Positions 6,314-8,797 of a stretch of DNA of 64,000 nt are shown here, piece after piece. Within the stretch, counting starts at the first letter, position 1, and every line of letters begins with the position of its first letter. The stretch spans positions 1,915,001 through 1,979,000 of the forward strand of contig NZ_CP071249.1 of assembly GCF_024499055.1 (NCBI RefSeq), in the 5' to 3' direction. Source of the stretch: Turicibacter bilis. Lineage in GTDB: Bacteria; Bacillota_I; Bacilli_A; MOL361; Turicibacteraceae. The notes below the pieces were generated by a model. It was not told the origin of the DNA and searched no databases. It was given only the letters and a program-made list of their open reading frames with translations. The position numbers and the translations under genes are program-made.

Positions 6314-7613
<1,300 letters not shown>

Positions 7614-7615
<2 letters not shown>

Positions 7616-7680
7616 AACAACTCTGCACTATGTGCAGTTAGTTGTTCTTGACTCCGCAACAAGCGGAGTTATCCTTTTTT
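7614..7680 (+). terminator. double hairpin and terminator after purA
   Basis: A first hairpin (AGAACAAC/GTTGTTCT enclosing CTGCAC/GTGCAG) begins at the stop codon. A second (ACTCCGC/GCGGAGT, 7651-7669) is followed by CCTTTTTT. The second is the likely intrinsic terminator. Confidence 0.8.
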
Positions 7681-7924
7681 GTGAAAGTCGTGAGAAACGA
7701 AGTAAGCACGACTACTACAAGAGGATTATTAGAAGCGAGAGTTTTCTTAATCGAGTGAAACTTTTGAATTAGAAATGAGAATTTATTTAGATACATACAT
7801 AGTGAAAAAGATTTCACATTTTACGAAATAAGCTTAGTACATTCGTTTTGATGGTAGCCAGGCTAACTATAGTAGCGCTAAAATTTTTTCAGCTATGAAA
7901 AACTTATCGCTACTTATATATATT

Positions 7925-8473
7925 CTGAGATAGCGGTGGAGAAAGCTGTTATAAATGTCAGTAAAGTGAGTGATTTGAGTAGAGAAGGGGAAATCTCTAC
8001 TAAGATTAATCAGTAAGAAAAAGTCATGAATCTGATGGGGAAGTCAGGTTTATGGTTATTGAATAGATGACTTTAGTGGAAGTGGGGAAGCTTCTGCTAT
8101 AATTTAGCGTATCATTATCGTGAGGAAACGATGGTGATGGATTTATGAGTGAGAGGTTTTAATAGAAATGGGGAAGTTTCTACTAATATAATTTGAATAT
8201 AGCTGAGAAGTTATGTTTATTTGAGTAAGAGCAACCTATTAGAAGCGGGGAAACTTCTACTAGGTTTTAGTGAGAAAACAGAATTTAATTGAATAAGAGT
8301 AGTAGTGAGAGTTAGAATTTTGAAGTGGATGGTAGATGGAAGGTGCTTATTAATAATGGGGAAGTTATTAATGGGTGGAAGGAACGTTTGTTTTATTTTT
8401 TAGGAGTAGGCTAAGAAGGTCAAGGTGGGAATTTTTATATAGATAGGCAACGCAATTTGCGTTGCTTTTTTTT
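7925..8473 (+). ncRNA. tandem GRGGAA-loop hairpin RNA
   Basis: No coding frame is seen between purA and 8516. Instead there are seven long stem-loops, each with the same hexaloop GGGGAA or GAGGAA, at 7987-7992, 8037-8042, 8084-8089, 8122-8127 (GAGGAA), 8170-8175, 8247-8252 and 8358-8363. Their stems are 8-13 base pairs and differ in sequence but pair throughout; two carry one A-C or T-C mismatch, and several use G-U pairs. A weaker relative (GGTGGAGAA loop) is at 7931-7947. Some hairpins are enclosed by longer pairings (TGATT/AATCA around the first, AAAGTCAT/ATGACTTT around the second). A perfect terminator closes the array. The upstream part, 7681-7924, holds further imperfect hairpins (for example AGTAGCG/CGCTACT at about 7871-7913), and the 5' end is not fixed. 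GGA in positions 3-5 of a hexaloop is the geometry recognised by CsrA/RsmA proteins, but whether this organism has one is unknown. Confidence 0.7.
8447..8473 (+). terminator. terminator of the hairpin-array RNA
   Basis: GCAACGC/GCGTTGC stem with an AATTT loop followed by eight T residues. It ends the non-coding unit 40 bases before the next gene. Confidence 0.9.
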
Positions 8474-8515
8474 CTAAATCATGTAAAATAGTGATGTTAA
8501 AGGGGCGTGATTTGG

Positions 8516-8797
8516 ATGAAGAAATGGTATTATGCAATTTTTTTAGTTTGTTTATTTGTTTTTAATCAAGCATTTAAGTCTTATGTAGAAGTATATGGTT
8601 TAATTGAAGGAGTATTGGTTGGGTTAACGATTGCATTTTTATGTAAGCTGGTGTTTAAGGTAGTGACGAAGACGATTATTTTTATCGCTATTGTGTGTGG
8701 TATTTTAGTGTTTTTAGTGTCATCAGGTTATATTGAGTTACCAGCAGAGCTTGCTAATCTTTTTAACCTTTCACATATATTTCACAGTTTTTTCTAA
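8516..8797 (+). CDS. small hypothetical membrane protein (93 aa)
   Basis: Not recognised. The 93-residue product is strongly hydrophobic, with two or three predicted membrane segments (about residues 4-20, 30-50 and 55-70) and a short polar tail. ATG 8516 is preferred over GTG 8507 because AGGGG (8501-8505) lies 10 bases before the ATG but only 1 before the GTG. A -10-like element (TGTAAAAT, about 8481) precedes it. The thioredoxin-like gene follows 50 bases later in the same direction. Confidence 0.7.
   Translation: MKKWYYAIFLVCLFVFNQAFKSYVEVYGLIEGVLVGLTIAFLCKLVFKVVTKTIIFIAIVCGILVFLVSSGYIELPAELANLFNLSHIFHSFF

Follow-up and report, generated by a model that had tools for sequence, protein, structure and literature searches.

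A tandem array of GRGGAA hexaloop hairpins in the purA 3' region of Turicibacter, a possible decoy for an RNA-binding regulator

What might seven tandem hairpins that hold up nearly the same hexaloop be doing in the noncoding DNA behind a purine gene? The locus lies in a window of 64,000 nucleotides from Turicibacter bilis (contig NZ_CP071249.1, positions 1,915,001 to 1,979,000), by which we mean the whole stretch of DNA analysed here, and the window is collinear with genomes of the genus Turicibacter. An earlier note, made from the sequence alone, had proposed a sponge for CsrA or another RNA-binding protein. We compared the genome to which the window belongs (G000) with four Turicibacter congeners (G001 to G004). 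The reading that we favour, at a probability of about 0.42, is that the array would be transcribed as part of the purA 3' region, be bound by an RNA-binding regulator and act as a decoy that titrates this regulator from mRNAs with single sites.

The hairpin array and its surroundings

The 891 noncoding bases that separate purA (adenylosuccinate synthetase; 6335-7615, plus strand; Pfam PF00709, E=9e-186) from a small membrane-protein gene at 8507 contain the array, and the region adjoins the purA orthologue in all five Turicibacter genomes. GRGGAA occurs seven times in 7925-8440, with the first loop base at 7987, 8037, 8084, 8122, 8170, 8247 and 8358. Every one of these hexamers (7987-8363) forms the loop of a hairpin with a stem of 8-15 bp, GGGGAA in six cases and GAGGAA at 8122, the split of loops that the earlier note had described. 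The array is G-rich and C-poor (28% G, 7% C), and the region is far more stably folded than shuffled sequences (z -6.4). The other 41 occurrences of GRGGAA on both strands of the window give only three weak stems.

All seven hairpins are encoded on the plus strand. Hairpins 2 (8022-8057), 3 (8074-8099), 5 (8159-8186) and 7 (8344-8377) present GGGGAA above a U.G closing pair, whereas the loop is A-GGGGAA-A in hairpin 1 (7968-8012), GAGGAA in hairpin 4 (8110-8139) and C-GGGGAA-A in hairpin 6 (8233-8266). The pair adjoining the hexaloop is thus U.G in four hairpins, in keeping with the description of the closing bases as mostly U and G, and U-A in one; the two with a mismatch there (A.A, C.A) have an 8-base loop. 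The stems had also been called unrelated, which is true of hairpins 2, 4 and 7, and of the array hairpin and leader hairpins in other contexts described below, but not of hairpins 1, 3, 5 and 6. These four have stems of a common TAG(T)AGAA...TTCTACTA-like type and, judged by that likeness, probably arose by duplication. Because their stems are related, part of the shared loop reflects inheritance, a point that weighs against the decoy reading.

Several other elements lie between purA and the array. A 35-nt hairpin (M1; 7614-7648, plus strand) with an 8 bp outer stem, a U/UUA internal loop and a 6 bp inner stem lies at the stop codon of purA in G000, G001 and G004; eight of its 14 pairs are changed on both sides among these three species, with 100% pairing and a conserved internal loop. 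M1 has no Rfam match. It was considered as a member of the array and rejected, being a separate hairpin that recurs near rpsR in G004, where a second copy (L092 1501-1535, minus strand) follows the rpsR terminator and precedes some 300 nt of noncoding DNA that is structured and ends in a terminator. Tandem structured repeats that are partly related to this stretch also occur in G004 3' of a DUF177-like gene (L103, about 1200-1900). Behind M1 in the window, a weak terminator-like hairpin (M2; CCGCAACAAGCGG, about 7649-7674, plus strand) precedes UAUCC and a T-run that is displaced, and hairpins related to M2 stand after M1 in G004 as well. Between M2 and the array lies one of about 45 dispersed genomic copies of a palindromic repeat (7852-7924, plus strand), which ends at TTATATATAT and probably represents one end of an IS200/IS605-like element or of a non-autonomous derivative. 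In G001 no such repeat precedes the array, and it is not part of the RNA in the congeners. A DNA search recovered only 7852-7924 elsewhere and none of the hairpins, so the array itself was rejected as a dispersed repeat family.

On the other side, the motif UCAARGUGGGRAWUU (8416-8434, plus strand) stands shortly 5' of an intrinsic terminator (8445-8473, plus strand), the perfect terminator ending at 8473 that the earlier note had pointed out. Both are kept in all five genomes, including G002 and G003, which have no array and retain a UCAARGUGGGRA-like motif before the terminator. Since these two species keep it, the terminator is probably the ancestral one of purA. In G001 about 75 nt, free of any T-run terminator, separate the stop codon of purA from the start of the array, whereas in G000 the weak M2 and the repeat copy intervene. 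Given the G001 arrangement, the array more likely belongs to the purA 3' UTR, or is cut from it, than forms a separate RNA, as first supposed. G001 also has an insertion of about 130 bp between the last array motif and the terminator (L029 3160-3300).

Selection on loops and stems

The number of hairpins downstream of purA varies from seven in G000 to four in G001, one in G004 and none in G002 and G003. The four of G001 are orthologues of hairpins 1, 2, 3 and 7, that of hairpin 1 having the same loop, and the single hairpin of G004 carries an identical U-GGGGAA-G top on an unrelated stem. Between the orthologous hairpins of G000 and G001, none of the 24 loop bases has changed, compared with 17 of the 96 stem bases (p=0.022), and pairing at the changed stem pairs is kept in 13 of 14 cases on the plus strand and in two of 14 on the minus strand. 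In the 12 hairpins of three species, 38 cells are changed on both sides versus 12 in shuffles, and covariation is far above both shuffled and slid controls. The same hairpins contain 21 G.U pairs and two A.C pairs, which identifies the plus strand as the RNA, as had been assumed. The antisense strand was rejected on the two pairs kept of 14 and on its lack of a T-run.

Since the loops are unchanged and 13 of the 14 changed pairs are kept on the plus strand, the comparison indicates that a plus-strand RNA is under selection for both stem and loop. This bears out the claim that pairing is maintained under stem change while the loop stays fixed. The opposite pattern, relatives that keep the stems and lose GRGGAA, had been named as one that would speak against a recognition site, and the congeners do not follow it.

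Occurrence elsewhere and single-copy sites

The covariance search suggested earlier was carried out with a model of the hairpins on 296 genomes of the class, and arrays were confined to Turicibacter. The best single match outside the genus scored 29.9 bits; the eight single matches in other genera are most likely due to chance, as is a match at nrdF in G004 (L049). A further match in G004 (34.2 bits) maps to an SNF-family leader. In the own genome, where 150 of 1426 candidates were scored, the covariance search found the array alone. A direct scan of sampled stretches added three sites, and the idea that the array is the sole site in this genome was accordingly rejected. The scanned sample comprised 2.46 Mb of Turicibacter DNA (45% of G000, 27% of G004 and 15% of G001). 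Outside the array, it held four GGGGAA hairpins of comparable score in 763 occurrences of the hexamer, compared with 14 hairpins in 34,939 occurrences of other G-rich purine hexamers. Two of the four are SNF leaders from deliberately chosen stretches. The remaining two, which came up unasked in the 3' UTR of glnA (glutamine synthetase) and the brnQ leader, are jointly of weak significance (p=0.045), which suggests but does not prove that they are part of the same set.

The SNF leader hairpin of G004 is situated about 58 nt upstream of the start of a gene of the Na+:neurotransmitter/amino-acid symporter family, and in G000 the orthologous leader forms a hairpin that is stronger still, its stem unrelated and its GGGGAA-A loop the same. 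No clear hairpin is present in this leader in G002 and G003. The decoy reading gains support from these two species, because they also lack the array. It is weakened by the gene itself, which is absent from G001, where the array is present, and has one in-frame TAA in G000 (L135 11032-12543, minus strand), the reading frame being intact in G002, G003 and G004. All five genomes have a second SNF paralogue, which lacks the hairpin. Transporters of the SNF family in Turicibacter attract interest in connection with serotonin. The gene with the leader hairpin is named here by family only and is not equated with the published TuriSERT (PMC10707687). An overlap with the Shine-Dalgarno sequence was rejected as a peculiarity of the SNF leader, since ribosome-binding sites of the form (A)GGGGGAA are common in the genus. 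At glnA, the GGGGAA hairpin has a perfect 12 bp stem just 5' of the terminator, and at brnQ the hairpin follows a T-box (Rfam RF00230, 143.6 bits) and precedes the ribosome-binding site.

The statement that no RNA of such form had been described agrees with our searches. Rfam at gathering score gave no match over 7580-8520, and the sub-threshold matches at a relaxed threshold sit at or around the terminator, so a known RNA family was rejected; searches of the literature did not find a description of the Turicibacter GRGGAA array RNA. A pattern scan of viral contigs with 16 bases of hairpin 7 returned 35 scattered single matches. The array is best called a form of putative multi-site decoy RNA, limited to part of one genus among the 296 genomes.

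Candidate regulators and competing explanations

Most known multi-hairpin sponges for proteins act on CsrA, and ANTAR regulators have such sponges in a two-hairpin form; in form, by analogy, the Turicibacter array resembles either kind of decoy. The proposal of a CsrA/RsmA sponge of the CsrB/RsmZ kind drew on GGA at hexaloop positions 3-5, which all seven loops contain, on the presence of several such hairpins on one terminator-ended RNA, and on the parallel, which now extends to single sites in mRNA leaders. However, the CsrA consensus is ANGGA, and loop position 1 is A in none of the seven array loops. The suggested genome search for csrA, by PF02599 in the own genome and the four congeners, returned nothing above cut-off, while the control genomes of E. 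coli, B. subtilis and T. maritima were positive. CsrA therefore has next to no chance of being the partner, and we do not assign the array, which also differs in its location in the purA 3' region, to the Csr sponges. The rest of the proposal fares better: the site is repeated, the same site occurs at other genes, and a sponge is still the best reading. A further likeness is to the flaA mRNA of Campylobacter, a target-derived CsrA sponge, in that its hexaloop sites are part of an mRNA and can draw off a regulator that binds leaders; it differs in having two sites in a 5' UTR that are read by CsrA, whereas the Turicibacter array has up to seven in a 3' region and no detectable csrA in the genome (PMC4894983).

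The most concrete candidate partner is a putative RNA-binding protein with a receiver-like and an ANTAR domain, encoded directly upstream of glnA (L216:16639-17205, minus strand; PF03861, E=3.7e-12, above cut-off). It comes first because its gene adjoins glnA, ANTAR proteins bind hexaloop hairpins and decoys titrate them. The glnA leader of G000, which separates the two genes (L216 16492-16573, minus strand), is predicted to form two hexaloop hairpins (AAUGGG, UGUGUU) that are mutually exclusive with a strong terminator, and is likely an ANTAR attenuator for glnA. The consensus ANTAR target consists of paired hairpins with A1 and G4 in the hexaloop and a linker of 5-12 nt (Turicibacter linkers are given below; PMC3369931), and in the crystal structure of an ANTAR protein with a hexaloop, G4 is the sole base-specific contact (PMC8934654). 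G4 is present in all 12 hairpins, and position 1 is G in all 12. The gaps between the array stems are about 9-77 nt (roughly 9, 16, 10, 19, 46 and 77, taking the longest stem for hairpin 1), of which at most two fall in the linker range. Because A1 is missing and the spacing differs, we do not assign the array to the ANTAR decoys, and the fit of the candidate is partial.

The nearest precedent is EutX/Rli55, a decoy RNA that sequesters the ANTAR protein EutV (PMC8934654). The two share a hexaloop with G4 read on variable stems, a decoy that titrates (in Turicibacter, would titrate) a leader-binding regulator, and here an ANTAR gene, that upstream of glnA. In contrast to the dual motif of EutX/Rli55, the array consists of seven mostly widely spaced single hairpins; nearly all positions of its loop are fixed, whereas EutV reads only G4; the SNF and brnQ sites have no evident antiterminator, and Rfam gives no riboswitch at the array.

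As a decoy, the array would offer one binding site for a trans-acting regulator on each GRGGAA hairpin, and seven sites on one RNA could draw the regulator off the single sites in the SNF-family Na+ symporter leader, probably the brnQ leader, and the glnA 3' UTR. Amino-acid uptake would by this means be tied to purine and nitrogen status. The decoy would be dispensable, because one congener has a single hairpin and two have none, and this counts against the reading. The regulator would not be CsrA, Hfq would be uninvolved, and the ANTAR protein may be the one concerned. A more specific version, possible though doubtful, is a circuit peculiar to the genus. In it, the leaders of amino-acid transporter genes would be controlled through their GGGGAA hairpins by an ANTAR protein whose loop code has altered, or by a hexaloop-binding protein of a kind not yet described, and the purA 3' UTR would carry an array, able to expand, that titrates this regulator. 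If the decoy reading is true, a seven-site decoy in the 3' region of an mRNA, from a gut symbiont of the Bacillota in which neither CsrA nor Hfq was detected, would widen the sponge class, with arrays seen growing and shrinking between species, and would open a first way into the study of post-transcriptional control in Turicibacter.

Three other explanations account for part of these observations. C-rich small RNAs of Bacillota block ribosome-binding sites via a C-rich seed, and the GGGGAA loops could kiss such a seed (UUCCCC) and so act as a small-RNA sponge. Pairing of this kind would conserve the loops, many ribosome-binding sites of the genus read (A)GGGGGAA, with UUCCCCC antisense near starts, and a UUCCCCC loop tops an intrinsic terminator on the minus strand of L176. 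Yet we identified no conserved UUCCCC small RNA, pairing has no need of a conserved U.G closing pair, and a search of the five Turicibacter genomes for hfq (PF17209) gave nothing above cut-off while control genomes were positive, so that an Hfq-dependent small RNA was rejected and the sponge in general seems unlikely. We are similarly sceptical of a role purely in cis, in which the hairpins, without titrating anything, would stabilise purA mRNA or time its decay by way of a bound protein or an RNase. The position of the array between purA and the conserved terminator, close behind the stop codon in G001, suits this explanation, as does the 3' UTR location of the glnA site; a stabiliser has no need of a fixed loop, however, the SNF leader sites stand 5' of the gene, and some species lack the array.

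Neutral expansion, by which one hairpin was duplicated and its copies drifted, without any function, in a 3' region that can be dispensed with, would explain the range of copy numbers across species and the related stems of hairpins 1, 3, 5 and 6, in a genus where dispersed repeats and hairpin-rich noncoding stretches are common. It is very unlikely in view of a loop that stays frozen while stems change and pairing is kept on one strand, and of the same loop on unrelated stems at the SNF leaders.

A long noncoding stretch elsewhere in G000 (L176 1-1900, minus strand) likewise contains repeated hairpins and terminators (ATGGATACCAACACCG..., TAGCGGGA...), one of them with a UUCCCCC loop.
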